A DNA stretch of 64,000 bases from Cobetia sp. L2A1 (GTDB lineage Bacteria; Pseudomonadota; Gammaproteobacteria; Pseudomonadales; Halomonadaceae): NCBI RefSeq assembly GCF_009796845.1, contig NZ_CP047025.1, positions 1,798,001 through 1,862,000 of the forward strand, read 5' to 3'. This document shows positions 2,835 to 18,185 of the stretch, one piece after another; positions within the stretch are counted from its first letter, which is position 1; each line of letters opens with the position of its first letter. Below the pieces are notes generated by a model that saw only the letters and a list, made by a program, of their open reading frames with translations, did not search any database and had not been told where the DNA came from. The position numbers and the translations under genes are program-made.

Positions 2835-3428
2835 CTATCCCGCCGTCAGAGAGGCGACCCCCATCCATGCCAGGCGAAGTGACAGCAGCGTCAGTGACCA
2901 TTTGAAGAGACCTTCGAAATTGTGATTCGACACCCTGTCGAGGAAGCGCAGGCCGATGCGTGTGCCGATCAATCCCGCGATGATCATCAATAGCATCAGG
3001 CCGAGCCAATCGCGGAAGACGAATCCCGCCATGCCGAATACGAAGGCCTTGGTCATATGTTGCGCCACCATGCAGGCGGAGAAGGTAGCTACCTTGGCAT
3101 GTCGCTCACCGCCACCCTGCTTGATGAAGCTGGCAACGAGGGGGCCGCTGGCGCCGATCAAGCTCGACAGCAGGGTAGTGACTGCCCCTGCGATCACGGT
3201 GCCCGTGGTGGATAGCGCTCGTTTGGGCAAGTCTGGTCCCCAGCAGGTCACCAGCACGAACACCGCGATGCAGAGTTCCAGTACACCCGAGGGCAGACGA
3301 ATCAGTAGCCAGGAAGCGACCAGCGCCCCCAGTACGGCCCCCGGCAGAAATGCGAGAAAGCGCCGCCAATCGATATGCCGCCAGGTCATGGCCATGCGCC
3401 CACCGTTGGACCCCAGCTGCACCATTCC
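2835..3428 (-). pseudogene. 3' part of a TauE/SafE-family permease gene split by the mobile element
   Basis: The last 197 codons of a TauE/SafE (DUF81) anion or organosulfur permease. The visible protein has five or six membrane segments, including LPGAVLGALVASWLLIRLP, and begins with the internal family motif VQLGSNGGR. It lacks the first two helices and the Gly-rich signature. Those missing residues, ending in SAAVGVGGGTLLIIV..ALIPVQG, are at 17901-18185 on the same strand. Joining the two pieces at the shared GGA codon (TCC at 3426-3428 and at 17901-17903) restores one uninterrupted frame of about 291 residues. An ATG happens to follow the junction, but a functional permease is unlikely without its N-terminal helices. 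Confidence 0.9.
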
Positions 3429-3441
3429 GTGTTAGAAGGAC
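3426..3441 (+). repeat. Left end of the element: 6-bp core TCCGTG plus 10-bp terminal repeat
   Basis: The core TCCGTG (3426-3431) directly abuts the terminal repeat TTAGAAGGAC (3432-3441). Its first three bases are the last intact codon (GGA on the minus strand) of the permease fragment. The matching right end differs at one core position and one repeat position. Confidence 0.8.
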
Positions 3442-3537
3442 CGCTAGATTTTATAGATATACGCAGGCTCATTGCCACCTTTTTGCGGAAATTCCATATA
3501 GTGAGGACCAAAAAAATAATATATAAAAATCAATCAC

Positions 3538-3588
3538 TTGCCTGAAGTATAACTGTATAATATATCTATAAAAGTACCGTCCAGGAGG
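3538..3588 (+). promoter_or_regulatory. Promoter and ribosome-binding site of the recombinase operon
   Basis: A perfect -10 hexamer TATAAT is at 3556-3561. No good -35 box is seen at the standard spacing; TTGCCT at 3538-3543 is only 12 bases away. A strong Shine-Dalgarno AGGAGG at 3583-3588 lies 6 bases before the ATG at 3595. The operon thus reads inward from the left end of the element. Confidence 0.5.
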
Positions 3589-3594
3589 ATTTGT

Positions 3595-4719
3595 ATGGGG
3601 TCTAACGTCAGGTGTGTCGAAGTAGATTTCAGCGAAGCCAAAGTTGAAAAGGTTAAAAGGCTAGGTGTTGTACCGCAATTTTTTAGTGATGAAGCGACGC
3701 TGCTAAAAGCTGCAAATCAGTATATGAGAGAAAAGTCGAGAAGACTTTCTCCAAAAAGTTTACGAACAGAAGCAGAGCATCTTAAGGAGTTTCTATCTTG
3801 GCTATTTTCGACCAGGATGGAATTTAATGAAATAGATATAGATTCCTTTGACTATTATGTCGAAGCTTTATGTCTTTATAAGAAATCCAATGGAGATGGA
3901 CTTAGTTGGAACACAGTAAATGCTCGTACAACAGGCGTATATCGATTTTTAATCTGGTGTTATAGTAAGGGGCATTGCCCTCATTTAGAACCAAGCGATG
4001 CGCGCTTAGTATCCGATAGCGCAAAAGGAATATATAAAAGTCGCAGACACCTTTCACGTGCAATTCAAGAGCCAGTAAAATTTTTAATCATGGAGGATGC
4101 GCTTAAGTTCATAAGTGCCCTAGGTGTTATCTCAGGACGAAATAGGCCACAAGTCAAGAATCGGAATATTCTAATCGGTGCTCTTATGTTGCAAACGGGA
4201 ATCAGGGTGTCTGAAGTATGTACATTCCCACTATCTGACCTTCCTGAAGTGCAAGAAAGATTGAAGTTAACACCTGCGAGATGTGTAGGGAAAGGCGGTA
4301 AAGCGAGGGTAATACTTATCCCTAACGAACTTTTGCTTAAACTTTGGGAATACGTCGATATTGATCGAGAGAGCATTTGCGAGAAAATAAAAAAAATTTT
4401 CCCTGATGCTATCTCAACAAGTTTATTTATCTCTACAAAAGGCTCGATACTTACCCCTAACTGGGTACAAAAGCTATTTCGTAAAGCAGGCCAATATTCT
4501 AGTATCAATGCCCACCCTCATAGTCTTCGCCACACCTTTGGAACTTATCATTACCTGTTGAATAGAGATCTACAGGGTCTTGCAAAGCTAATGGGGCATG
4601 AAGATGTGCAAACAACTCATGAATTTTATGTAGATACTGCCACCAAGGTGTCCTACGCATCTACGTATTCAGATTGGAATAAAAAAATAGATACACACCT
4701 GGAAGAAATCGATGACTAG
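3595..4719 (+). CDS. Tyrosine recombinase, Tn554 TnpA-like (first of three)
   Basis: Site-specific recombinase of 374 residues, close to Tn554 TnpA (about 360). An N-terminal SAM-like core-binding domain spans roughly residues 40-135, and the catalytic domain 170-360. All catalytic positions are visible: Arg204 in TGIRVSEV, Lys in GKGGK (about 233-236), His309 and Arg312 in HPHSLRHTFG, His335 in LMGHED, and nucleophile Tyr345 in HEFYVD. It should therefore cut and rejoin DNA at the element ends. The gene is preceded by AGGAGG and overlaps the next gene by 8 bases. Codon use is AT-rich, unlike the chromosome. Confidence 0.93.
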   Translation: MGSNVRCVEVDFSEAKVEKVKRLGVVPQFFSDEATLLKAANQYMREKSRRLSPKSLRTEAEHLKEFLSWLFSTRMEFNEIDIDSFDYYVEALCLYKKSNGDGLSWNTVNARTTGVYRFLIWCYSKGHCPHLEPSDARLVSDSAKGIYKSRRHLSRAIQEPVKFLIMEDALKFISALGVISGRNRPQVKNRNILIGALMLQTGIRVSEVCTFPLSDLPEVQERLKLTPARCVGKGGKARVILIPNELLLKLWEYVDIDRESICEKIKKIFPDAISTSLFISTKGSILTPNWVQKLFRKAGQYSSINAHPHSLRHTFGTYHYLLNRDLQGLAKLMGHEDVQTTHEFYVDTATKVSYASTYSDWNKKIDTHLEEIDD

Positions 4720-6790
4720 TGAAAAATATACATCCATACAAGCGCTACACGCTATGGAAATGCGTATACAACGAGATTTATCCTTTACAGCAACTTGTAA
4801 AAATACAAACAAGGAAAAAGTATTTGACTTTTCAAAGAAAAAGTATGCGCGGAAAAATAGTGAAATAATGGAAGTTTTCGTCTGGGCTATTTACAAGCTT
4901 AGACACAAAAGCGGAAACACCACAAAAGTAGCTTACTACGAAAAATGCAACAGTTTCTTTGAATTCTTGGAACAACATAGTATATACAAACCTGAGTCTC
5001 TCGAAACAGCTACTTTTTCTCGATACATTGAGTGGCTTAAACGGCATCCTAGGATGTCATACGCTACAGCAGCTAGTGTATATCGAAGTTTAAGGACTAT
5101 TTTCGATCAAATGGGAAACCATCCTAAGATTAATAAAAAAATTCGACCGCCAAGAAATGCTTTCCCGAAGTCTACCAGTTTGCAAAAAGTAGATGTTGGT
5201 TATGATGATAAGGAATTTAAACAGATACTGAAATCTGTGATACAGAGCTTGAGAGATTCTAAAAAACGCTTAGAAACAGAGTATAATCCTAAATATCTTG
5301 GATTAGAAGCGCCACTAGAAGGTGTTGCAACACTATATGCTGCCACAGGTAAGTATGTAACATGGGCAACGCATGAACACAGAGTTTGGTTTTTTGAGAA
5401 TGCAATGAAATGTCAGGAATTAAACACTTATTCGGAAATAGAAAAAATACCAAAAGGGCATGTTTTCTGGTACTCCATTATTCGTGACTACCCCCATCCA
5501 AAATATAAAAACATTAGACAGTTTTATGAGTATATTGGTGCTGGACCCAACTATAAACCAAAATATATTGACAAGCCAAGCCCTGCTAGATATAGATCAC
5601 CATGGAAAAAGTGGGATTACGTAGTATGGTATTGGGAAAATAAAATGGGAGCACATAACTATACAGAGCGAGAGTTGAAAGAAAAATTTCCAGAATTTAG
5701 AAATGCAATGAAAGAGCATTGGACGAGCGCAAAAAAAGCTATGGAGCAGTTAAATGTTTGGCGTTGGATTTCGTCATATGATCTAACTCCTTACTATTTA
5801 ATGCTGATTATTAGAACAGGTCTTAATCCATCTACTGTGCAACGGCTAAATGTAGATTGCATACAAAAAGATCCAGTTAATGCAGAACTGAAGTATATAA
5901 ATTGGACTAAATATAGATCAAATAAAAAAGATCGAACAATTTCCGAAGAAAAAGCAAAAAATGATACTTGGGCTATTTCTATTATAGAAAGAGTAATAAA
6001 AATCACAGCCAAAATTCGACCTGAAGGGATGAAGGAGTTATGGATTAGTGATGCCAATAATCAGAAAATTCCAAAACCTTTTACTGCTGGATATTTTGAG
6101 TCAGGTGTGAGAAAGCTATTTGAAAAATATCCAGTGCTTTACTCAGATAGTGGTGAAAAAATTAAAGTTTATGCTAAAAATATAAGACCAACTATCGCCT
6201 GGAATGAGTACTTGAGAACAGAGGATCTACACTATTTACAAACCTTGCTTGGACATTCTAATGTATCGACTACCTCAGATTACTTAAGACGCTTGGATGA
6301 TCCAGTTTTTAGAGTTCGTAGATCTATCCATAGTGACGCTATGTTTTTTGGACTCGACCAAGGCAATCATCAAGAAATTAATAAAAAAACTGGAGATAAC
6401 GCAAGAGTTATTGCAAAAGATGAAGATAATGGTATTTATAATGGGCTGCTTAATCATTGTAGAGATCCTAAAAATTCTCCAGTACAAGGACAAAATACAG
6501 GAGAGCTTTGTTCTGTCACAACTGATGTATGCCTTGGTTGCCAAAACTTAATAATTACACCTGTAGATATAATGAAGCACTTTTGTTACATTTATTTTCA
6601 TGACTTCCTGTTAACTATAAACGAGATATCGGTGGAAGAATACGATAAAGCAATTTCATACAAGAAGCATTTTTGGAGTAGATATATTTTGCCAAAGTAC
6701 CCTGATACCATATTGGAGAGTTTAATGGCAGAGGCAAAGTCATCTCCAATCCCTATTTGGGATCCAAAGTGCTATGAGGATACAAAATAA
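4712..6790 (+). CDS. Tyrosine recombinase-like protein, TnpB-like, with altered catalytic site and C-terminal Cys cluster
   Basis: A 692-residue protein occupying the TnpB position. The C-terminal half keeps the recombinase layout but is altered: the first Arg is replaced (TGLNPSTV, Asn372), the H-x-x-R box reads K-N-I-R (Arg492), and His515 in LLGHSN and Tyr524 in TSDYLRR remain. Loss of Arg I suggests it is weakly catalytic or non-catalytic and assists its partners; this is inference. After the catalytic domain, roughly residues 588-635 contain spaced cysteines including CLGCQN, resembling a zinc-binding tail. The N-terminal half is a long Lys/Tyr-rich domain, probably DNA-binding. The start overlaps the previous gene by 8 bases, and the stop overlaps the next ATG by one base (TAATG). 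Confidence 0.85.
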   Translation: MTSEKYTSIQALHAMEMRIQRDLSFTATCKNTNKEKVFDFSKKKYARKNSEIMEVFVWAIYKLRHKSGNTTKVAYYEKCNSFFEFLEQHSIYKPESLETATFSRYIEWLKRHPRMSYATAASVYRSLRTIFDQMGNHPKINKKIRPPRNAFPKSTSLQKVDVGYDDKEFKQILKSVIQSLRDSKKRLETEYNPKYLGLEAPLEGVATLYAATGKYVTWATHEHRVWFFENAMKCQELNTYSEIEKIPKGHVFWYSIIRDYPHPKYKNIRQFYEYIGAGPNYKPKYIDKPSPARYRSPWKKWDYVVWYWENKMGAHNYTERELKEKFPEFRNAMKEHWTSAKKAMEQLNVWRWISSYDLTPYYLMLIIRTGLNPSTVQRLNVDCIQKDPVNAELKYINWTKYRSNKKDRTISEEKAKNDTWAISIIERVIKITAKIRPEGMKELWISDANNQKIPKPFTAGYFESGVRKLFEKYPVLYSDSGEKIKVYAKNIRPTIAWNEYLRTEDLHYLQTLLGHSNVSTTSDYLRRLDDPVFRVRRSIHSDAMFFGLDQGNHQEINKKTGDNARVIAKDEDNGIYNGLLNHCRDPKNSPVQGQNTGELCSVTTDVCLGCQNLIITPVDIMKHFCYIYFHDFLLTINEISVEEYDKAISYKKHFWSRYILPKYPDTILESLMAEAKSSPIPIWDPKCYEDTK

Positions 6791-8664
6791 TGAATGATAG
6801 AATCCCCCTCGAATCCATTGAGCCTACAACTTACCAAATTACTACCGTGCATAGTAGTTTAAAATCAATCAAATATCTTGATATAACCCAGTTAGAGTTA
6901 AAAGAAAAACATGATATAAAAGTATCAGTTAGTTCTAGATATGAAGACAACATTTGGGATTTTCATGTAGAGTTTCCGTATAGCAGTACAACAGAAGTTT
7001 CTTTAAGCTTTAGGATAGAACTTAGTGATGGTACTTTATTAACAGATGATGGTAATAAAAAGTTTTTAGAGCAAGCTAAAGACTTTTATTACACGATGTT
7101 AACAGATCCAGTTGATACGAGGCCGAAGTTTTCAACTTACGTAAAGACAATTAAAAGAGGTTTTAAATGGTTGTTCAGCTATATGAAGAGAAATGGGATA
7201 AAAAAACTTTCCGATATCGAACAATATGATGTAGACGAATTCTTAGAACAAGTCGCTTCTACTAGAATAAAAGGTAAGGAACAGGAACCTATTAATAATA
7301 GAACGTTAGCTACTAGATTAGAGGGTGTTGATTGGATTTACGAACAAAATCCAAAAATGAAAGATGGATTAGAAATAGATATCTTTTCGGAGTACGGTGG
7401 GAGAAGTAGATGGTCTCGCGCCGCGGCCGAAGTTGTATTCAGTCGGAAGGAATCGCGTACTGTAGAAATGCCTGACGAGGTTGCCAGGGAATTAATTCAG
7501 TGTGCTATTTCAGATCTAAGAATAAGCGATTGTCTACAAGAAATATATGACATAGATATTCAATATGAAAGAAAAATGATAGGTTATAAAGAGTGGGTTA
7601 GTATTAGAGAGGTGATTTATCAAAGACATGGTTATTTGGAGGGGCGAATTGAACGACAAAAAAGAGCCACTCTTGAATCCCAGCTATTTGCTGCCTGCTA
7701 TACGATAATAGCCCTATTAACGGGTATGCGTCTTCATGAAGTTTTAAATATCCAGTTTGGATCTGACAAAAATTGGTGCGCTGAAACTTTAGAAATGAAT
7801 GGTCAATTGTTTAAGCTTTCTTTTGTACTAAGTAAAACGACTAAGTTAGAGCCTAAGCCTACTGAATATAAATGGCAAACAGTTCCTATTGTAAAGTCAG
7901 CTTTAGAAGCATTAGAAAAGGTGTCCAAGCGAAATTATGACAATGGTAGCCCTTGGCTTTTCTCAGGTCACAAATCGAGTGCTAGAATGGGAAAGGGAGC
8001 TATAGGGCATAGTCTTAAAAATTTTGCAGTAAAACACGATATTAGATTTAACGGCGAAGTCTGGGATTTAGCGTCCCATCAGTTTAGAAAAAAATTCGCA
8101 AGAATTATGGTGAGACAAGGGCTGGGGCTTCGCGCTCTACAAGATCAGCTCAAGCATTACGATATCGAGATGACAAAACTGTACGGCGACCCAAACCTAT
8201 ATTTTGAATTACAAGCTGAAAAGTTCTTACTCTCGGAAGAATTAATGACGGAATTTATTGGCTCACAGATCCCAATTATCGGCGGAGGTGCAGTTGAAAT
8301 TCAAGAAATTCGTAAAGAGTTTTTAGGGCTGGCAAAAAAAGATCGAGGAAAATTTCTTAAATCCCTTCCGTCACAAGGATTAGTTGAGCAAACTGACGAT
8401 GGTCTTTGTTTCTATAGAGCAAAAAAAGCATTGTGTGGAGGTGATAAGACTAACTGTAGACCCGCTGATTGCAATAATTCTTTCATGGTGGCTACTGGGA
8501 AAAAGAAAACTCTTCTTTATAGGAGAAAAGAAAACAATAGGCTGATTGAATTTTTTCGTGACCAGCCATTTAAGATTATGCACTTGAAGGAAAGAAATAA
8601 AGAAATTGATAAACTGCTATTCCAGATAACATTAATAGAGAGCTCTAATGAAGAAAATATCTAG
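6790..8664 (+). CDS. Large tyrosine recombinase with C-terminal Cys-rich tail (third of three)
   Basis: A 624-residue recombinase. The family residues are present: Arg314 in LLTGMRLHEV, a Lys-bearing strand before the TVPIVKSAL segment, His430 and Arg433 in SHQFRKKFA, His456 in LKHYDI, and Tyr465 in TKLYGD. An N-terminal domain of about 100 residues of unknown type precedes the core-binding region (about residues 105-190). A tail with CGGDKTNCRPADC (about residues 552-566) looks metal-binding. Tn554 itself has only two tyrosine recombinases, so a third active-looking one sets this element apart. Translation is coupled to the genes on both sides (one-base overlap before, 17-base overlap after). 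Confidence 0.88.
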   Translation: MNDRIPLESIEPTTYQITTVHSSLKSIKYLDITQLELKEKHDIKVSVSSRYEDNIWDFHVEFPYSSTTEVSLSFRIELSDGTLLTDDGNKKFLEQAKDFYYTMLTDPVDTRPKFSTYVKTIKRGFKWLFSYMKRNGIKKLSDIEQYDVDEFLEQVASTRIKGKEQEPINNRTLATRLEGVDWIYEQNPKMKDGLEIDIFSEYGGRSRWSRAAAEVVFSRKESRTVEMPDEVARELIQCAISDLRISDCLQEIYDIDIQYERKMIGYKEWVSIREVIYQRHGYLEGRIERQKRATLESQLFAACYTIIALLTGMRLHEVLNIQFGSDKNWCAETLEMNGQLFKLSFVLSKTTKLEPKPTEYKWQTVPIVKSALEALEKVSKRNYDNGSPWLFSGHKSSARMGKGAIGHSLKNFAVKHDIRFNGEVWDLASHQFRKKFARIMVRQGLGLRALQDQLKHYDIEMTKLYGDPNLYFELQAEKFLLSEELMTEFIGSQIPIIGGGAVEIQEIRKEFLGLAKKDRGKFLKSLPSQGLVEQTDDGLCFYRAKKALCGGDKTNCRPADCNNSFMVATGKKKTLLYRRKENNRLIEFFRDQPFKIMHLKERNKEIDKLLFQITLIESSNEENI

Positions 8665-9097
8665 AGGTAGCCATCAAGGATTGCTAAAAAATCGAGAAGA
8701 GACAAAGCGTCTGAACACAGAAGCATTGTGGCAACAGGTTCAGCGATTAAGGAAAGAAAAGCCTAACACTCTTTGGTCATATAAAGAAGTATGGCAGGGA
8801 GCAGGGCTAAAAAGCAATGTGGCACTCAACAGCCCTTGGAATGCAAGTATAAAAGAAGCTGTCGCAGAACATAATAGGCTATTGAGAGAGCAGGCTGAAA
8901 GTGGTACAGCTGGCCAAACCCAGCGAAAGACCTTGCGAATTACTAATAAAGAGCTAAGAAACCAAATAAAGCAGTTAAAAATTGAGCATGAAAAAGCACT
9001 TTCAAAAATGGCTATATGGGAGGCTGAAGCTGATTTTTATCAACGCGATAATGAACGCTTACAGCGTAAAATAAACCGTTTATTAGAAACTGAATGA
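8648..9097 (+). CDS. Small coiled-coil TnpC-like accessory protein (DUF6262-like)
   Basis: A 149-residue basic protein. The N-terminal part, with residues such as GLLKNREETKRLNTEALW and the motif LNSPWNASIKEAV, is of the kind found in small proteins encoded after tyrosine recombinases, such as TnpC of Tn554 (about 125 residues). The C-terminal half (about residues 95-148) is a continuous coiled coil. In Tn554, TnpC affects transposition frequency and orientation and is not itself a recombinase. The gene begins inside the end of the third recombinase gene (17-base overlap), so it belongs to the same operon. The exact family is from memory of motifs. Confidence 0.75.
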   Translation: MKKISRGSHQGLLKNREETKRLNTEALWQQVQRLRKEKPNTLWSYKEVWQGAGLKSNVALNSPWNASIKEAVAEHNRLLREQAESGTAGQTQRKTLRITNKELRNQIKQLKIEHEKALSKMAIWEAEADFYQRDNERLQRKINRLLETE

Positions 9098-9392
9098 CAC
9101 AATTTATCTAAGCTGCCAACAATGCTTACTGTGCGACACTTTATCACAAATTGGCTCGTAGCTTCCGTGCGAAGACATGTCTTTCTTGGATGCATTCCGG
9201 TCTACGAGCCAACTTTGGACTGAAAACTCGATTGTTAGCTGTAAACTAATGTCATCATCCTACACGATCTTCCACCATGGTCCCGATCTCATTGATGGCT
9301 CGATTATGATCTGCGAGAGCCGCATCTGAAGTGGACCCCAGAATTCGGACCAGGCGCTAAGCTCTGATCAGACCGACCAGGAGAGCTTGATC

Positions 9393-9680
9393 ATGAGCAG
9401 GAAACGTCGACAGTACAGCAGTGAGTTCAAAGCCAAGGTAGCCCCTGTCGCCCTCAAGGGGGAACAGCCCACGTCGGAGATCGCAGCCGGCTTCGAGATC
9501 CACCCAGCCAAGGTGAGTCAGTGGTAACGCGAACTGCTGGACAACGCCATCGGCGTCTTCGAGAGCAAGAGCCCCGGTAAAGCCGCCCAGAAGACCCAAG
9601 AGGAGATCGATACGCTCTAACGTGAAATCGGCAAGCTGACGGTAGAGCAGGATTTTTTGTCACGCGGGCTCGGTCGTTGA
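9393..9680 (+). pseudogene. IS3-family orfA with two in-frame stops
   Basis: The reading starts M-S-R-K-R-R-Q-Y-S-S-E-F-K-A-K-V and includes a helix-turn-helix (TSEIAAGFEIHPAKVSQW), the usual IS3 OrfA DNA-binding region. In-frame stops occur at 9525 and 9618, and the frame ends at 9678-9680, giving the normal length of about 95 codons. The stops make it non-functional. Confidence 0.9.
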
Positions 9681-10529
9681 GCTGGGCCCAACGCCTGGCA
9701 CTGGTCGAGCCGCAGGCGCCCGACATCAGCCTCCGACGTCAGTGTCAGCTACTCGGTATCAGTCGCTCCTCGATGTACTATTAGCGCAAGGCGCTACGGG
9801 CCTATGACGTGGAGCTAATGCGTCTGATCGACGCGGAACATCTGCGCACACCGGTCTATGGCTCACGACGGATGTCAGCCTACCTCAATCGCCTGGGACA
9901 CGCAGTGAGCCGCAAGCGCGTTCAGCGATTGATGCTCGGGATGGGGCTACAGGCTATTTATCCGAAGCCATGCACCAGTCGGCCAGGCATGGGACATCGG
10001 ATCTATTCTTACTTGCTGCGGGGGGCGAGTCATCGACCGTCCCAATCAGGTATGGGCGACCGATATCACCTATATTCCTTTGGCGCGCGGGTTCATGTAC
10101 CTGGTGGCCATCATGGGTTGGCACAGCCGTCGCGTGTTGGCCTGGAGAGTCTCCAACACCCTGGATACGGACTTCTGTATCGATGCTTTGGAGGAAGCCC
10201 TGGCGTGCTACGGAAAGCCCGAGATATTCAATACAGATCAAGACTGTCAGTTCACCAGCCAGGCGTTCACCGAAGTTCTGGATGCCCATGATGTTCGGAT
10301 CAGCATGGACGGCAAGCGATGCTATCAGGACAACATATTCGTGGAACGACTCTGGCGCAGTGTGAAGTATGAGTGCGTTTACCTGAAGGCTTTCGAGAGT
10401 GGCGCCCACTTGCGAAGGGATCTGAAGCGTTACTTCGCTTGGTACAACACGGAGCGGCCCCACCAAGGGCTGGACGATGCTACACCTGATGAAGTGTACT
10501 TCTCTCAACCACTGCCCCAGGCGGCCTGA
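9680..10529 (+). pseudogene. IS3-family orfB transposase with a stop and a frameshift
   Basis: A DDE transposase relic. The N-terminal part (SWAQRLALVEPQAPDISLRRQ..) is interrupted by a TAG at 9782. A helper region, YGSRRMSAYLNRLGHAVSRKRV, then follows. The frame breaks near 10020 and continues in another frame with VWATDITYIPLARGFMYLV, FNTDQDCQFTS and ERLWRSVKYE, which hold the three acidic residues. Usual residues have also drifted (MGWH for MDWH, DQDCQF for DQGSQF), showing an old inactive copy. Confidence 0.9.
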
Positions 10530-10596
10530 CGCCGATGATGATCCGATCCGAGCTTAGATGACCTGTCAGATGGTCCAAAGGACGGGGTCCACTTCA

Positions 10597-11395
10597 ATCG
10601 TAGCAGGGCTGCTCCTGGCCGATGTCGACCACACAGCTTGGAGGGCGGCCATCATGGATGAGAACCGTCTCCAGAAGGCGCGCCCGGCGCGACAGCCAAG
10701 TGCAATTCGCAAACCCTTTCAGCGGCTTCCTCCGACATTTGGCTGCACTTTGCTGTAGCCGTCTACCAGTTCGCCTCCCATGTCGCTTCCTCGGGAAGAA
10801 ATATGTCGTAAGTAGCCTTTCACATACTTTGCCAAGTAGTATTAAATGCTAATAATTGAAACCAAAAGTTACGACTTTTTTTGCTACGTCTGTAGGTGGT
10901 GGAGGTGTTAGAGCTGTTGGCGCGGCACTACTTGGAGCGTCTGGTGGAATGCCTGAGAGCCCTAGGCCCGTGGTGATCCGCTAGAGGGCATCAGGTGGCG
11001 GTAGCGTGCCTGATCGTCTGGCATCGCCTGTATAGATAGAGGCACATAGCATCGAAGGTCTCATAATAGAACGTCAGGCGCAGGGATGAGTTCTATTTGT
11101 CACCACATTCGCCGGGCCCGCCTCAAGCTTGTGGTGAAAAGTTCTGCAGCTATTCTATGAATCCAAATTTTCAGGTTGCAATAAAAAACGGAGTACCTAC
11201 TTACGATCCAAAGAGGACATTCCACAGAGGCTGCGTACGCTATTAGAAATAGTAATACTATTGATATGTACTTAATTCTATATTTTCCAATAGTATGAGA
11301 TATGCTGCGATCACGTAGCATAATATATATTGAATATTTGTGGTTTGAAATGAGATGTCAAGCATTCCACATAATACAAATGTTAGGTCATTATC
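10597..11395. other. Gene-poor stretch inside the element
   Basis: About 800 bases without a convincing gene. The first 200 bases are GC-rich and continue the segment interrupted by the IS3 copy (9241-9326). If the IS is removed, a minus-strand frame of some 80 codons without a start or recognisable motif runs across the site, too little to call a gene. A short Gly-rich frame (FATSVGGGGVRAVGAALLG) near 10880-10980 may be a gene remnant. From 11100 the DNA is AT-rich and probably holds the promoter of the CHAT gene. Confidence 0.5.
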
Positions 11396-12454
11396 ATGTC
11401 TATTGAAACTCTGCGGAATCGCATAGCTCAGCTGGAAAAAGAGAAGGCTAACCTCGAAAAGTCGCTGAGCCGAGAACGGGAAAGCGCACGAAAAAGACAA
11501 GCTGAGATTGCGCAAGTGTCACGCTCGATCAATAAGAACATGTCGTTGAGCATGCTGTCTTCTAAAAAGCGTCAGATTGAGTTAAAGCAGAAGCAATTGA
11601 GTGCGTATGAGAAGAAGGCAGCTGATTTTCAGATCAAAGTGGCTAATAAGAATTCGGAAATCATGAGAAAACTCAGTGAAGCGGATAGGGCTGCAAGACA
11701 GGCACAGCGGTATAACATACAGGATGAAAAAAGACGGCAAGACAAACAGATTCATCACTCGAAGCAGGTCACAAGGGAGCTTAAACTTCAGTCGCAAATT
11801 CACAATCAGTTATCGTCAAATCCAATTGTTGTGAAATTTGCAGACTTGCCGAAGAAAATTAACGTTCTATTTATTGCATCGAACCCAAAGGATCAAACAC
11901 AGCTAAAGCTGGATGAGGAAATTCGAGCTATTACTAGAAAAATTCGGGAGTCAGAGTATCGAGATGCGATCGAGCTAAAGGCAATTTGGGCCACACGTCC
12001 GGATGACCTGCTGCAGGCTGTCAACGAGCACAAACCAACAGTCGTTCATTTCAGTGGTCATGGTTCGGATCAAGGAGAACTCGTTTTCCAAGATGACTCT
12101 GGGAGTACTAAATTAGTTTCACTTAAATCCATTGTTCAATTTTTCAAGGTGATGGCTTCAGGAATTGAGCTTGTGGTGTTCAACGCATGCTATTCTCATT
12201 CACAGGCAGAGGAAGTGACAAACCATGTCAAAGCGGCAATTGGCATGAGTGATTCCGTCGGAGATGAAGCCGCTCGTGTATTCGCCGCTCAGCTGTATTC
12301 AGCAATTGGCTTTGGAAAAAACGTTCACGATGCCTTTGAACAAGCAAAAGTAGCACTTCTACTTGCAGGAATTCCGGAAGAAAATATTCCTGAGCTGTTC
12401 GTGGCTGATGGAGTCGAAACTAATAGCTTGATCCTTGTGCAACCACAAACCTAG
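11396..12454 (+). CDS. Coiled-coil plus CHAT-domain caspase-like protease
   Basis: A 352-residue protein. Residues 1-140 are a highly charged coiled coil beginning MSIETLRNRIAQLEKEKANL; the same type of N-terminal module is seen on other bacterial effectors such as TIR proteins. Residues about 155-350 form a CHAT domain (caspase HetF-associated with TPRs): INVLFIASNP strand, catalytic His222 in VHFSGHGS and catalytic Cys265 in VFNACYS, plus GMSDSVGDEAARVFAAQLYSAIG as in caspase-fold proteins. It should be a cysteine protease activated by a partner or signal. CHAT proteases act as effectors in several prokaryotic immune systems. It lies 133 bases before the PIN gene on the same strand. Protease family is clear; a defence role is inferred from its location. 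Confidence 0.9.
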   Translation: MSIETLRNRIAQLEKEKANLEKSLSRERESARKRQAEIAQVSRSINKNMSLSMLSSKKRQIELKQKQLSAYEKKAADFQIKVANKNSEIMRKLSEADRAARQAQRYNIQDEKRRQDKQIHHSKQVTRELKLQSQIHNQLSSNPIVVKFADLPKKINVLFIASNPKDQTQLKLDEEIRAITRKIRESEYRDAIELKAIWATRPDDLLQAVNEHKPTVVHFSGHGSDQGELVFQDDSGSTKLVSLKSIVQFFKVMASGIELVVFNACYSHSQAEEVTNHVKAAIGMSDSVGDEAARVFAAQLYSAIGFGKNVHDAFEQAKVALLLAGIPEENIPELFVADGVETNSLILVQPQT

Positions 12455-12587
12455 AGAAGCCGTAGCAACAGACGTTTGACTCACAGATTTTGCTTCTGCA
12501 CAAGCAGGAATCTCTTTAAATGCCGCTAAAATATGTCGTTAATTTAGCCAGATTCAGTGATAAGAGATAACCGAGAGTGAGAATTGT

Positions 12588-13595
12588 ATGAATTATATGT
12601 TCCTCGATACGTGTGTGTTACTGGATATTTCTACGAAAAGAAGTGATCTCGCGCTTGTGTCCGCATTAGAGATCCTGTTGAGTTCGAACAGCGTAAAATT
12701 AGTTTTGGCTGACCTGGTTGTTGAAGAGTATGAGCGAAATAAGGATAGTGTGGCGAAGAAAACTACACAACGCTTGTCTCAAGAGTTCAGGCAGGTCAAG
12801 GCTGTGGTAAATGAGTTTGCTGGTGAAAAGCAAGCGGCAACCATAAGCGTTCTAAATGATATCAATGCAAGGCTACCTCTTTTAACCGAGGCAAGCTATT
12901 CAACTATTCGTAGAGTTGAAAGGCTGATCGAGTCGGCGGTGGTAACTGCAGTTAGTGAGCGTTCAAAAATCGCTGCCGTTCATCGTGGGCTAGAAAAAAA
13001 AGCGCCATTTCATATAAGCAAAAACTCTGTTGCAGATGCTGTCATTATTGAACAGTTTTTCGAGTTTATGTGTGGTCTAAATAGTGGCGATGATACTTGT
13101 ATTTTTATTACCCATAACCATAACGACTTTTCCTCGAAAGATCATCGTAAACCGCATTCGGATTTTGACGAGATATTTTCATCTTCGCATTCTTTTTATT
13201 TTAATAGTCTAGTCCCCGCTATTAACCACATTGATTCTGACTTGCTTTCCGAAGTTGAGTTCGAGCATGACTTTTCAGAAGAAACCAGAGGATTGAGAGA
13301 AATATTGGACTCTATGGATGAGTTGGTCGATAAGGTCTGGTTTAATCGCCATCAAAACCATATGCGGCTCATCGAAAATGGTAGAATTAAAATAGTTCCT
13401 GAGGGAACTGAGCGCTATGACTCAAATATAATTCATGAGAATATTTTCCAGGGTGCTATAAAATCAGCTGAACTTATTGAAGGAAAGTATGAAGATACAG
13501 GCCCGTGGAGTGACTTTGAGTGGGGAATGCTAAATGGGAAGTTATCAGCGCTACGTTGGGTACTAGGTGATGAATGGGATATGTTGGACACATAA
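12588..13595 (+). CDS. PIN-like nuclease (DUF4935 type) with a distinctive C-terminal tail
   Basis: A 335-residue protein. The first 190 residues form a PIN-like RNase domain of the DUF4935 kind: Asp7 in FLDTCVLLD, Glu46/Glu47 in VVEEYER, Asp150 in SVADAVIIE and Asp180 in THNHNDF, giving the four acidic metal-binding positions. It probably cleaves RNA. Residues about 195-285 have no recognised domain. The last 45 residues (WSDFEWGMLNGKLSALRWV then GDEWDMLDT) are rich in Trp and acidic residues and look like a separate small conserved module. It follows the CHAT gene on the same strand with a gap of 133 bases. A role as toxic effector paired with CHAT is inference. Confidence 0.82.
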   Translation: MNYMFLDTCVLLDISTKRSDLALVSALEILLSSNSVKLVLADLVVEEYERNKDSVAKKTTQRLSQEFRQVKAVVNEFAGEKQAATISVLNDINARLPLLTEASYSTIRRVERLIESAVVTAVSERSKIAAVHRGLEKKAPFHISKNSVADAVIIEQFFEFMCGLNSGDDTCIFITHNHNDFSSKDHRKPHSDFDEIFSSSHSFYFNSLVPAINHIDSDLLSEVEFEHDFSEETRGLREILDSMDELVDKVWFNRHQNHMRLIENGRIKIVPEGTERYDSNIIHENIFQGAIKSAELIEGKYEDTGPWSDFEWGMLNGKLSALRWVLGDEWDMLDT

Positions 13596-13814
13596 GTTAG
13601 AAAATTATTCTAGTAGTCGGCTATTTCCGAGTAGTGAATTTATTGTTCCTTCAGCTTGTGGCCGGGCGTAGTATAAACGGATGACCATACAATTATATAA
13701 CACTTCTCGCTTGAAAAACTAGCATGCGATTTATACCTTCTAATACTCGAAGAAAAAGAGAGTAAAAATTGGACTTCAGGGATATTAGTCATAACAGCAA
13801 AAAACTAACTATTC

Positions 13815-14917
13815 ACCTGGATTCATAGAATAACCGCAGCACTTTGGACCGCACGGTAGAGGCAGGAGGGCCAGCGCCGGTACCCTTCTCGGCTAACCGA
13901 CCAAAGTGAAGCAGAGTATGGAATACCGACAGCTGACTCAGACCCAACGATACCAGATCCACGCCCGTTATGACTTGGGCATGAGCCAGCGCCAGATCGG
14001 CAGGGAGCTGAACCTCCACAGCAGCATGATCAGCCGTGAAATTCGCCTTAACGCCACCGCTGATGGCTATGATCCCGAGCAGCCTCAGACATTCAGTGAT
14101 CATCGGCGCCGCACTGCTACCAAATGGACAAAGCGCCTTCCAGGCATGATGGCCGCCGTTGCCGGTCGGCTACGTGAGGAGTGGAGCCCGCAGCAAATCA
14201 GTGGCTTCATGGCGCCCTTGGCCGGCGTTAGTGTCAGTCATCAATGGATCGACTCCTTGATCTGGGACGACAAGGCACGGGGTGGTGGCCTTTGGCGGCA
14301 TCTCCGTCAGCCCAAACGCCGCAATAAGCACTGCACGCACGCCAAGAGTGCCGGGTTGGGTAAGATCCCCAACCAAGTCGGTATCGAGCACCGCCCAGAT
14401 GAGATTGATGACCGGCGCTTCATCGGCCACTGGGAGGGCGACACCGTGATACAGGGCCACAAGCAATCAGGCCTGGTCACGCTGGTCGAGCGTCGCAGTG
14501 GCTATTGACTGGCGGCACGACTGCCCAAGATCTCGGCCGAGTGACGCAAGCAACCATGATCCGCTTGTTGAAGCCGCGTCGGGGAGCGGTCCAGACGATC
14601 ACACTGGACAATGACTCGGAATTCGCTGGCCACGAAGCGGTGGCCAAGGCCGTGACGGCGGCGATGTACTTCTGCGATCCCTACTGCTCTGGACATTGTG
14701 GGACCAACGAGAATACGAATGGCCTGATACGGCAGTACCTCCCCAAAGGAACGGATTTCCGCCAGGTCAGCAATGCAGAGCTACGCAAGGTGGTCGAAAA
14801 GCTGAATGACCGTCCTCGAAAGCGACTCGGCTACCGGACACCGGCGCAGGTGTGTCTAGGGGAATACTCAGGAGGCCTGAATACCGCAGGTGCTGCGCTT
14901 ATTGCTTGAATTCAGGT
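13815..14917 (+). mobile_element. Decayed IS30-family insertion sequence, about 1.1 kb
   Basis: Imperfect inverted repeats bound the copy: left ACCTGGATTCATAG and onward from 13815, right the complement of ACCTGAATTCAAG and onward ending at 14917. They share AATAA and CGCAGCAC blocks further in. No clear target duplication is seen. It encodes one broken transposase. GC-rich sequence inside the AT-rich element shows a separate origin. Confidence 0.8.
13918..14909 (+). pseudogene. IS30-family transposase, interrupted by a stop and a frameshift
   Basis: The frame starts M-E-Y-R-Q-L-T-Q-T-Q-R-Y-Q-I, typical of IS30, followed by the helix-turn-helix GMSQRQIGRELN and the motif FIGHWEGDTVIQG with the first catalytic Asp. 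A TGA at 14506 stops it after VERRSGY, and about 12 codons later the frame shifts. The other frame then supplies TITLDNDSEFAGHE (second Asp) and GTNENTNGLIRQYLPKG (catalytic Glu). Several usual residues have drifted, so this copy is dead. Confidence 0.9.
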
Positions 14918-14933
14918 CACAAAGCAATAAGCG
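14896..14933. repeat. 12-bp perfect inverted repeat at the IS30 right end
   Basis: CGCTTATTGCTT (14896-14907) and its exact complement (14922-14933) are separated by 14 bases. The second arm resembles the IS30 terminal sequence and lies just outside the IS. It could be a partial second IS end or a hairpin. Confidence 0.65.
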
Positions 14934-15187
14934 AGCCGCACTTTAAAGAAAAGACAGTTCTGTTGCAAGCACATGGAACTATGTTGATTTATGGCTGAAG
15001 TGAGCAGGAAAGCATCATGCTCGTTTTCTATGGAATCAAGCTTATAGTTTTTATGATGCGACATTGCTTCTTTTAAAAGTATCAGTGTCTGATTTATCGA
15101 AATTACGCAATTAGATTGTCAAGCTGCCCTTTGAATATAAGTTATAATTTTAGGTTATTATGTTTTCAATTAATATCGGAGTTGGAT

Positions 15188-16267
15188 ATGAGTGATAAAG
15201 AGAATAAGTATGGTTTAAAGCGTTATGTGCCTTCTGATATTCGAGCGAAAATAAGAAGGGATGCTGGGTTTGGATGTGTTATTTGTGGATGTGTGCTTGT
15301 TGACTATGAGCATATTGATCCTGAATTTAGTCAGGCGAAAGAGCACAATCCTGAAAAAATGACTCTGCTTTGCATATCTTGTCATGGGAGGGTTTCAAGA
15401 AAGATAATATCCAAAAGAGCCGTTTGGGAAGCCAAGAATAACCCTAGATCACTACATGATGGCTTTGTACACGATCTCTTGTTTGTCAATACTGAAGAAA
15501 TGGAGATCAAGATCGGAAACTCATCGTCGAAGAGTACGAAGATAATACTAACTATATGTGGAAAACCTATCATATGGTTTGAGCCTCCTTTCGAGGACGG
15601 AGAGCCTAGTAAGTTATGCGCCATTTTTTATGATGAAAATGGGAAAGCAATTTCTTACGTAAATCGCAACCAATTTACTGCGCTCTCAACTAACCAGGAT
15701 GTTTGGAGCAAGTCCACAAAGCTATCAATAACCTCAAATGATGTCAGATGCTTAGTCATGGATAGGGAAGGAGATAGTGTACTTCACATTTCAAAAATGC
15801 AGGGAAAATATTTAGATACGTCAGTTACAATAGATAGTCAAGATAGATTAATAATGACTCAAGGTGTCTCAACATTAACTATCGGTGCGCTTCGGGTCGA
15901 GAACTGTGGTTCTGCTATTGTTCTTGGTGATATACCAGCGATAGCGAAGTATAATAAATTGTCTCTGGCGGTTTCGATTGCGTATAATTATGGCGCTAAA
16001 GCCGTTTTAGATCTAAAGAATAAGTTTGCTGGCTGGATTGTTAATGGGGAAATTTTTAATCGAAAGTATGAGCTGGTAGGGTTCATGAGGGCAAAGAAAG
16101 TTTATAGTATCGCTAACGAGTTTATAGGCTCCTTGAATGGATCATATATTGCTCATATGGATGATTGCTATGAAAATGGAGAGCCCATTTTCGTATCGCC
16201 AGAAAACATGGAGTTTAAGCGTAACAATCCCAGCATAGGATATGATGTTAGCTTTAGGCTGTTATGA
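15188..16267 (+). CDS. HNH endonuclease with a large uncharacterised C-terminal region
   Basis: A 359-residue protein from the ATG at 15188, chosen because GGAG stands just upstream; an earlier in-frame start at 15116 would add 24 residues without a binding site. Residues 25-72 are an HNH domain with zinc-type cysteines: CVICGC (Cys30, Cys33), EHID (His42), EHNPEKM, and CISCHG (Cys62, Cys65, His66). The remaining 280 residues are beta-rich, with no domain I recognise, and may be a sensing or binding part. A DNA-cutting role in defence is likely from family and location. It stands alone between the IS30 relic and a 500-base gap. Confidence 0.82.
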   Translation: MSDKENKYGLKRYVPSDIRAKIRRDAGFGCVICGCVLVDYEHIDPEFSQAKEHNPEKMTLLCISCHGRVSRKIISKRAVWEAKNNPRSLHDGFVHDLLFVNTEEMEIKIGNSSSKSTKIILTICGKPIIWFEPPFEDGEPSKLCAIFYDENGKAISYVNRNQFTALSTNQDVWSKSTKLSITSNDVRCLVMDREGDSVLHISKMQGKYLDTSVTIDSQDRLIMTQGVSTLTIGALRVENCGSAIVLGDIPAIAKYNKLSLAVSIAYNYGAKAVLDLKNKFAGWIVNGEIFNRKYELVGFMRAKKVYSIANEFIGSLNGSYIAHMDDCYENGEPIFVSPENMEFKRNNPSIGYDVSFRLL

Positions 16268-16764
16268 TGAGTAATTTGGAAAAGCCATCAGTTTGGCCCC
16301 TGAGCTGCACTATGGCGGCATTACATCAGCCTTATCTGAACGTGCGACAGATATAGGCGTCTTAACGCTTGCGTAGGCAGCTTGCCGGCGATCTGCGCTG
16401 AAGACAAGTAGCGCCGAAGGAGATGCTCGACAAGGCTGAACCGCTTGCTATCAATGGAGAGCTTTCGCCTGTGCCAGCGCCGACACTTAAGTCGTGACGT
16501 GCTACTACTACTCGGTTCTCGATCCCTGAATCATTAATTCGGCTAAAAATTCGCGGCTAACAGTGGAGGATAACAACCAAGCATTGTGCTTTGTCTCGAA
16601 GCCTCAAGCTGTGTGAGAGATAAACCTAGGTAGTGGCTCTATCGTTGACGTTGAATTCTTAGTATGACACGAAATCAGTACATTAGAGAAAAGCCTTGGT
16701 GCTGCACTCAGAAGCTGTGGCCAAATTGTTATTAAGTTTTTAATTATATATTATAGAGGTGTCT
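16268..16764. other. Non-coding stretch between the HNH and DUF2971 genes
   Basis: About 500 bases of mixed composition without a convincing gene, RNA or repeat. The last 30 bases are very AT-rich (TTATTAAGTTTTTAATTATATATTATAG) and probably contain the DUF2971 promoter and ribosome-binding site. Confidence 0.5.
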
Positions 16765-17634
16765 ATGCTTTTTCATTACACAAGTTTAAATGGCCTTTTA
16801 GGCATTATAGATAGCAATAGTATATGGGCTAGTCATACTGATTATCTTAATGATTCTATTGAAATTCAGCATGCATTAAGGCTTCTTGAGTCATTTTCAC
16901 GCAATATTTACATGGAAGACGACTATCTTTCTTCATTTGGCTGGGCTGTCGGGCAAGGTATTCGTAATATGGTCCGTGCAACGGAGTATATTTGTAGTTT
17001 TAGTAGGGAGGCTGATTTACTTAGTCAGTGGAGAGGATACTGCCCTAAAGGGTCAGGAGTATGCCTTGGTTTTGATGAAAAAATAATTCGTGATTACTGT
17101 AATGCTAATGGCTTTGTTTTTTCTAAATGCTTATATAATGAAAATGAGCAAAAGGAAGATATAAAGAAGATATTAAATGACTGCTATCAGAGTTTCCCGA
17201 AGCCTTTAATTTCAAGGGATGAATATAACTCTCTTGAAGTGGAAAAACAATGTGAGTATGACGCTTGTTATAGGGAGCATTTAACTATCGGTTTAGGTAA
17301 GAAAGAAGCTGATTTTGCTATAGAGAAGTTGTGTAAAGAGATCCAGGAGTATGCTCCATTGATTAAGGACGGCGGATTTTATGAAGAAAATGAGTGGCGT
17401 GTAGTAGTAAGTAATCCTAAGGGAAAGATCTCTTACCGCGTAGTAGACTCTTACTTAGTGCCTTATATGAATATATCATTTCTTGAAAACAGTAAGGATG
17501 CGCTAAAAAAAATAGTTATTGGGCCCAATCCTAATGCGCAAAAGTGTGCAGCCTCTATAAAGTTGGCCCTTAAATCTAAAGGGTTTATGAATACACAAGT
17601 TGAAATATCTTCAATCCCCTTTAATAATTGGTGA
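16765..17634 (+). CDS. DUF2971 family protein
   Basis: A 289-residue protein. The family pattern is clear: LFHYTSLNGLLGIIDSNSIWAS at the start, YLNDSIEI, ICSFSREADLLSQWRGYCP and GVCLGFDEKII in the middle, and FYEENEWRVVV toward the end. The biochemical role of DUF2971 is not established; members are common in mobile islands and near defence genes. The ATG at 16765 is favoured over the GTG at 16759 because AGAGG ends 5 bases before it. It is the last cargo gene before the right end of the element. A defence role is inference. Confidence 0.8.
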   Translation: MLFHYTSLNGLLGIIDSNSIWASHTDYLNDSIEIQHALRLLESFSRNIYMEDDYLSSFGWAVGQGIRNMVRATEYICSFSREADLLSQWRGYCPKGSGVCLGFDEKIIRDYCNANGFVFSKCLYNENEQKEDIKKILNDCYQSFPKPLISRDEYNSLEVEKQCEYDACYREHLTIGLGKKEADFAIEKLCKEIQEYAPLIKDGGFYEENEWRVVVSNPKGKISYRVVDSYLVPYMNISFLENSKDALKKIVIGPNPNAQKCAASIKLALKSKGFMNTQVEISSIPFNNW

Positions 17635-17890
17635 CAAGAGGTTTATGTTTAATGATGCTCCTACTATTTTCTCTATGCAGTTCAAAGTTAAGCTATAGGA
17701 GGTTGTTAAGATAAAATATAGAGGTTATCTATATCGTAATTGTTATGGTCTATGCTGACGCAATATGTTTGTTTGCGAAATGCTTGGCTTTATCCTACTC
17801 CAACTACTCTGCATACATAGTCTTACATCTACTATATCTACGCTCAAGTGCCCATGTTTCAGCATTGATAGCGTGAATAATGTTGCTTTA

Positions 17891-17906
17891 GTCCTCCTAA
17901 TCCCTG
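17891..17906 (-). repeat. Right end of the element: 10-bp terminal repeat plus 6-bp core TCCCTG
   Basis: GTCCTCCTAA (17891-17900) is the inverted counterpart of the left terminal repeat (9 of 10 bases). The core TCCCTG (17901-17906) directly follows and is in frame with the 5' part of the permease gene (CAG-GGA on the minus strand). Confidence 0.8.
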
Positions 17907-18185
17907 GACCGGAATCAGGGCACCGACAGGCATTACCTGAGCCATGACAATGATCAGCAGGGTGCCACCGCCAACCCCCACGGCAGCCGAGAGAGCAGAG
18001 GTCAGCGCTGCAAACAGGATCAAGGTCAGCGTGACAGGGGGAGACAGGGGAGACGCATACAGTGACCATGAATTCAGGTGGTCCAGCAGCAGAGACAGCT
18101 GTGATATCTCAGGCATGATGCGCGTCTTCTCGGCAGGAGTCTGGCGGTCTTCAGCAGTCGGCATCAAGGCAAGAGCTGCCACCAT
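17901..18185 (-). pseudogene. 5' part of the split TauE/SafE-family permease gene
   Basis: The first 95 codons of the permease whose remainder is at 2835-3428. The peptide includes a first helix (PPVTLTLILFAALTSALSAA) and the family signature GVGGGTLLIIVMAQVMPVGALIPVQG, at which point the element begins. In an intact relative the next residues would be MVQLGSNGGR, exactly what the other piece supplies. The start may be 18185 or an internal ATG at 18116; neither has a clear ribosome-binding site. Confidence 0.88.

Follow-up and report, generated by a model that had tools for sequence, protein, structure and literature searches.

What has divided a permease gene in the chromosome of the marine bacterium Cobetia sp. 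L2A1, and why do the six-base sequences at the two edges of the inserted DNA differ from each other? The stretch analyzed (the window: 64,000 nucleotides, positions 1,798,001-1,862,000 of the 4.12-Mb one-contig genome) carries on its minus strand a TauE/SafE permease gene (tauE) that is split into two parts, 2835-3425 and 17907-18185, by an inserted element occupying positions 3432-17906 (14,475 bp, right six bases included). The reading favored here, to which a probability of roughly four in five is given, is that the element is a site-specific transposon of the Tn554/GInt/SE group (SE, strand-biased circularizing integrative element), and that it has left the core of its donor site as a footprint at its right end. 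The features on which the argument depends are the following.

2835-3425, minus strand: C-terminal part of TauE/SafE (Pfam TauE, E 3e-17; orthologues uninterrupted in genomes G001, G003, G004 and G005)
3426-3431, no strand: left core TCCGTG, native to the target (encodes His-Gly on the minus strand; His in uninterrupted tauE genes)
3432-3442, no strand: left terminus TTAGAAGGACC, identical in genomes G002, G146 and G296
17870-17874, minus strand: right-end inner box, ACGCT on the minus strand (A-Y-G-C-T in related right ends)
17891-17900, no strand: right terminus GTCCTCCTAA, present in distant members
17901-17906, no strand: right core TCCCTG, foreign to tauE by comparison with relatives, encoding Gln-Gly
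17907-18185, minus strand: N-terminal part of TauE, in the same frame as the C-terminal part when joined

Joining the left flank, the left core and the right flank restores a single open frame of 291 amino acids with ALIPVHGMVQLGSNGGR; if the right core is used instead of the left, the junction reads PVQG. The C-terminal part of tauE was matched in 41 of 58 related genomes searched. Four of the five same-genus relatives (G001, G003, G004 and G005) have an uninterrupted junction, in a single frame with ALIPVHGMVQLGSNGGR, and the fifth, C. amphilecti N-80 (G002), has a related element at the identical tauE codon, its junctions being CACCAT-GCCATG-TTAGAAGG on the left and CCTCCTAA-GCCCTG-CACCGG on the right. 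When the G002 flanks are joined with the left core kept, they equal the empty site of G004 at 98/98 bases. His is encoded at the core codon in 20/20 uninterrupted tauE genes read, all drawn from the 41 matching genomes, and the right core of the window encodes Gln. Because of the exact match between G002 and G004 and the constancy of His, the left core TCCGTG is, judged from these relatives, native to tauE and the right core TCCCTG foreign to it. A reading that treats the TauE fragments as two separate genes or as the product of an old rearrangement, so that the coordinates define no mobile element, is hardly credible: the GC content of 35-44% in the element outside its two insertion sequences, compared with 55-59% in the flanks, by itself indicates foreign DNA only, but the exact empty site, together with whole orthologues in four of the five same-genus genomes, led to rejection of the idea of two separate tauE-fragment genes.

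The two termini, compared in inverted orientation, agree at 9/10 bases, and the patterns TTAGRAGGAC and GTCCTYCTAA occur once each in the 64-kb window. Among 275 genomes of the family, the left-end pattern was found in three and the right-end pattern in four (at five places), the window's own genome being included in both counts. Reversed-pattern controls gave one hit in each search; the ends are therefore more than chance matches, and a chance origin was rejected. In 8 of the 11 distinct right ends an AYGCT box is found exactly 27 bases inward of the terminus; it is perhaps a second, putative protein-binding site.

These results bear on a preliminary description of the same DNA, which had proposed an in-frame disruption of tauE with no target duplication, bounded by inverted ends and by one native and one foreign core. 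The disruption is borne out by the joined frame and by the whole gene in relatives, and the absence of duplication and the unequal origin of the cores by the comparison of empty with occupied sites. Every coordinate given there for the ends and for TCCGTG and TCCCTG holds, and related copies share these ends rather than ending elsewhere. The uninterrupted gene for which a search had been proposed was found in relatives, which do not carry the halves as separate genes, and the predicted empty target CACCAT-TCCSTG-GACCGG is sharpened, the relatives fixing S as G.

Right ends were located by pattern in the family genomes and in further records, their flanks were read, and targets were named from the translated flanks. 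The same tauE codon serves as the insertion point in several genomes, and other copies lie in msrA and in comM-like, C5-DNA-methyltransferase-like and sulfotransferase-like genes; plasmid pF061_1 and one Pseudomonas chengduensis end fall outside these named targets. Immediately to the right of the core, the hexamer conforms to NRYNGG in 17/17 right ends with a readable flank, a count that omits G420, whose search pattern contained NRYNGG. Native tauE and msrA sites are alike around the core, reading CAT-NCCNTG-NNYCGG in many relatives. From the wider records, eight perfect right-end matches were accepted; five imperfect matches (G300, G301, G302, G303 and W03) were accepted as well, because in them the gene seen at the left junction runs on into the flank; right-end matches with one or two mismatches were mostly chance-like, the reversed control being equally high. 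A search of one Pseudomonas group returned two of 348 genomes, namely G304 (already in the set) and G420, a further right end in a methyltransferase-like gene, and a search of the order returned three of 390, the window and two that were judged from their flanks to be chance. Viral contigs yielded 22 pattern matches, with no relative encoded in any of these stretches.

Both ends were read for twelve copies, and in six of these they lie on a single contig or plasmid. Left out of this count are G296 (left end only), G420 and G098:C33 (right end only), G297 and G305 (three ends, one of which meets a contig edge and has no flank), and G304 (its right end lies in a comM-like gene, and its left contig abuts a transposase-like frame). 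The target genes and core pairs of the twelve are as follows.

Window, tauE: left TCCGTG, right TCCCTG
G002, tauE: left GCCATG, right GCCCTG
G146, tauE: left GCCGTG, right GCCCTG
G098, msrA: left GCCCTG, right GCCATG
G298, msrA: left TCCCTG, right CCCGTG
G299, msrA: left GCCCTG, right TCCCTG
pKF715A, methyltransferase: left TCCCTG, right TGCCTG
G300, comM: left ACCTTG, right ACCCTG
Shewanella G301, sulfotransferase: left GCCGCG, right GCCATG
Shewanella G302, sulfotransferase: left GCCGCG, right ACCATG
Shewanella G303, sulfotransferase: left GCCGCG, right GCCTTG
pF061_1: left CTTCTG, right GCCCTG

The left core differs from the right core in all twelve. In all seven copies that can be checked against intact relatives (tauE in the window, G002, G146 and G296, whose right end was not found; msrA in G098, G298 and G299) the left core encodes the native residue, which for msrA is Gln in 30/30 relatives read (23 + 7; 43 genomes were matched in the msrA search). 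The right cores in tauE are of the Gln type, as in msrA, in 4/4 cases (the window, G002, G146 and the solo right end in G098), and those in msrA are of the His type, as in tauE, in 2/4 (G098 and G298), so that the right core is foreign in type at six of eight right ends in these two genes. It might be supposed that the right six bases are element sequence, or have drifted since insertion, and hold no record of a donor, a notion to which the restriction of many right cores to the narrow class NCCCTG lends some color. It is nevertheless very improbable. Among five S. stutzeri-type right ends that differ by at most one base over their last 60 bp, three cores occur, CCCGTG, TCCCTG (in three) and GCCCTG, and thus the six bases are not element sequence; the right ends of the three Shewanella copies, also the same or nearly so over 60 bp, likewise carry GCCATG, ACCATG and GCCTTG, and drift would not yield the Gln type in four of four tauE insertions together with the His type in two msrA insertions.

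The machinery that would act on these cores is encoded by four genes at the left end of the element, each overlapping or abutting its neighbor.

3595-4719, plus strand: YR1, a 374-aa tyrosine recombinase with complete catalytic boxes (Phage_integrase, E 1.3e-20; alignment)
4712-6790, plus strand: YR2, a 692-aa degenerate protein of recombinase fold (alignment of 37 homologues; structure model)
6790-8664, plus strand: YR3, a 624-aa tyrosine recombinase with complete catalytic boxes (Phage_integrase, E 9.9e-16; alignment)
8648-9097, plus strand: C4, a 149-aa small protein with a C-terminus that looks coiled-coil-like by eye (conserved in 11 aligned members)

YR2 homologues, of which 57 were found, have Asn in place of the first catalytic Arg in 37/37 and the box-II His in 0/37 aligned, and keep the second catalytic Arg and the Tyr in 37/37. 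The predicted structure of YR2 (mean pLDDT 79.6, pTM 0.57) is best matched by XerH, XerA and Cre (E 4e-5 to 9e-4, with low global TM-scores). For C4, the Pfam search returned no family and nothing informative. The thirteen named genome loci belong to Cobetia, Halomonas, Pseudomonas, Stutzerimonas, Shewanella and two metagenome bins; all four genes were matched in eight of them, the remaining five being cut by contig ends. In the homologue survey six of 275 family genomes gave a match, the window's own genome and two weak fragments among them.

The proposed mechanism for the donor-footprint reading is as follows. The two recombinases with complete boxes, together with the degenerate one and the small accessory protein, would join the ends of the element through the 6-bp core, in a division of labor that we infer. 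The left-end core of the donor, and not its right-end core, would travel with a presumed circular form, which is probably copied rather than excised from the donor. Insertion would leave the target's own core next to the left end and set the travelling core next to the right end; no target duplication would then result, and the right core would be the footprint of the previous site. The same donor-core rule has been shown by experiment for SEs (PMC9345347 and PMC10214605) and for the Tn554-related Tn552-II (PMC12486829). An unlikely but more serious competitor is cut-and-paste movement with staggered cuts and a symmetric heteroduplex core, in which repair or replication places either core on either side with no direction. 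Heteroduplex repair is the model proposed for GInts in PMC5385486, where GInt circles in Pseudomonas are described as keeping either core (in roughly equal shares for a mini-element) and an empty site as detectable in three of the tested GInt strains. Such symmetry predicts no left-right bias; yet it is the left core that is native in 7/7 checkable copies, an outcome that random placement would give at 1 in 128 if the copies were independent, which is not assured.

Several points weigh against the donor-footprint reading. Its support is comparison of sequences, and neither a circle nor a transposition event has been observed. Six of the 12 two-ended copies span different contigs, their ends being paired by target gene only, and the copies are related; full independence of the two Cobetia insertions is not certain. 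Two of the four msrA right cores (G299 and G305) are of the Gln type and thus show no link to tauE. The core of the window begins with T on both sides (positions 3426 and 17901), a puzzling coincidence: the other tauE-site cores begin with G (left in G002, G146 and G296; right in G002, G146 and G098), and T is the first core base in 0/20 native tauE genes. Possible explanations are a T-bearing donor plus a synonymous substitution in this strain, or partial core conversion. Finally, a prediction for tauE right ends that was set beforehand met no new tauE copy among the 390 genomes.

If the right core does record the donor, the tauE copies would most simply have come from sites with NCCCTG cores such as msrA, and two of the msrA copies would have come from sites with NCCRTG cores such as tauE. 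The donor of the element in the window could as well have been a methyltransferase site, because TCCCTG is the left core of the pKF715A copy. A broader interpretation, for and against which the balance seems even, is that these elements form a distinct lineage whose second recombinase is dead and which moves back and forth between unrelated genes that have little in common beyond an NCCNTG-NRYNGG half-site; that the right core is the last address; that elements have passed repeatedly between tauE and msrA sites; and that GInt-like elements use the directional donor-core route of SEs. Were this so, the SE-type directional route would extend to GInt-like elements, a point previously unsettled for GInts: the 2023 SE paper lists GInt movement as not tested and calls strand bias in their recombination elusive (PMC10214605). 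Little is understood about transposons that move by tyrosine recombinases without duplicating the target. The genomes compared here hold readable footprints, right six bases that are non-native and of core types seen in other target genes, and the direction of core transfer and the tracing of donors are therefore testable by sequence comparison and simple polymerase chain reaction. No account of tauE and msrA as a target pair was found among the literature matches listed or by a term search within PMC10214605.

Members of the family also occur on large Pseudomonas plasmids, P. aeruginosa pF061_1 (L061) and P. putida pKF715A (L064), and such plasmids are a possible route between hosts. In Halomonas sp. 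LBP4 (L157, G098:C33:149000-161000) tauE is intact at 514-1269, and a solo right end lies 9.4 kb from it, joined to a second tauE N-terminal piece at 10674-10853 (171 bp at 84% identity) and unaccompanied by recombinase genes; to judge from this arrangement, the solo end may be the scar of a lost or recombined element.

The remainder of the element in the window consists of cargo genes and two inserted insertion sequences.

9327-10597, plus strand: insertion sequence with HTH_21 and rve domains (Pfam), which we take to be IS3-type; not in the G002 copy
11396-12454, plus strand: CHAT-domain cargo protein (CHAT, E 1.8e-11; PADLOC candidate PDC-S66, E 5.5e-16)
12588-13595, plus strand: PIN-domain cargo protein (PIN_12, E 2.5e-24)
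13816-14919, plus strand: insertion sequence with an HTH_38 domain (Pfam), presumably IS30-type; stretches 85-97% identical in a G146 contig
15116-16267, plus strand: beta-flower cargo protein (Bflower, E 1e-5) with a weak HNH match (E 0.063, below cut-off)
16759-17634, plus strand: DUF2971 cargo protein (DUF2971, E 2.4e-14; PADLOC candidate PDC-S31, E 7.8e-6)

The G002 copy has the core block and the ends as in the window and a largely different cargo, which includes a full-length PD-Lambda-4_A anti-phage protein (E 0; L039, 9204-13058). Cargo is thus exchangeable between fixed ends, with PD-Lambda-4_A in the C. amphilecti copy as against other genes in the window. Because two of the proteins resemble PADLOC candidates and the G002 copy carries PD-Lambda-4_A, the cargo of the window likely serves defence; GInts carrying defence genes have been reported in E. 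coli (PMC10121019).

How, then, does the element compare with known systems? Two candidates were rejected. RIT elements likewise have three adjacent recombinase genes, but their proteins, as described in PMC10214605, are of 315-410 aa, all with the catalytic Tyr, and their inverted repeats are of 34 bp, whereas the element here has proteins of 374, 692 and 624 aa, inverted ends of about 10 bp and a fourth gene; the protein sizes and the gene set decided against them. A gamma-mobile-trio island was set aside on the match of the GmtY model to YR1 (E 0.003, 17 bits against a cut-off of 340).

The element shares with GInts, as described in PMC5385486, a four-gene block at one end (three recombinase-type proteins and a small protein), variable cargo, site-specific insertion, and imperfect direct repeats around a 6-nt core, which are found here in 12/12 two-ended copies. 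GInts differ in that the third protein, GinC, is the one without the first Arg in that description of ginABCD, whereas here it is the second (37/37) and the third keeps its Arg. The block of P. aeruginosa pF011, which may be Tn6571-like, shows 28, 23 and 24% identity to YR1, YR2 and YR3 and no match to C4. Four-gene blocks of Stutzerimonas, looked for in the hope of a proven GInt reference, were not used as one, because no insertion site could be identified for them.

The gene order fits that of SEs, intA-tfp-intB-srap, in which the second protein lacks the catalytic motif (PMC10214605); YR2 may be of this kind, since the first Arg and the box-II His are missing from it, yet its second Arg and Tyr are present. 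The SE of plasmid pSEA1 was the one compared: YR1 is 29% identical to its IntA over 187 aa (E 5.6e-9), YR3 matches IntB by profile only (probability 74%, E 2.9e-5), and YR2 and C4 have no match in Tfp and Srap of this one SE. In the part of pAQU1 read for a further SE reference, none was recognized. Because the defect of GinC is not found in the third protein, and Tfp and Srap of pSEA1 have no sequence counterpart, the element is filed in the Tn554/GInt/SE group and not as a confirmed GInt or SE.

The preliminary description had called the element Tn554-like, a name that stands for the mode of action and fails for the gene set: Tn554 has three genes, tnpA, tnpB and tnpC, against four here, including an extra degenerate recombinase, in the layout of ginABCD and SEs (a comparison by gene set). 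One published scheme (PMC8865565) places ginABCD elements (the Tn6488 and Tn6571 subfamilies) in the Tn554 family. With Tn554 and Tn552-II the element shares tyrosine recombinases, the lack of a target duplication and the passage of the donor core to the right end (PMC12486829), and a donor-derived 6-bp core at the right end is likewise what PMC10214605 and PMC9345347 describe for SEs.

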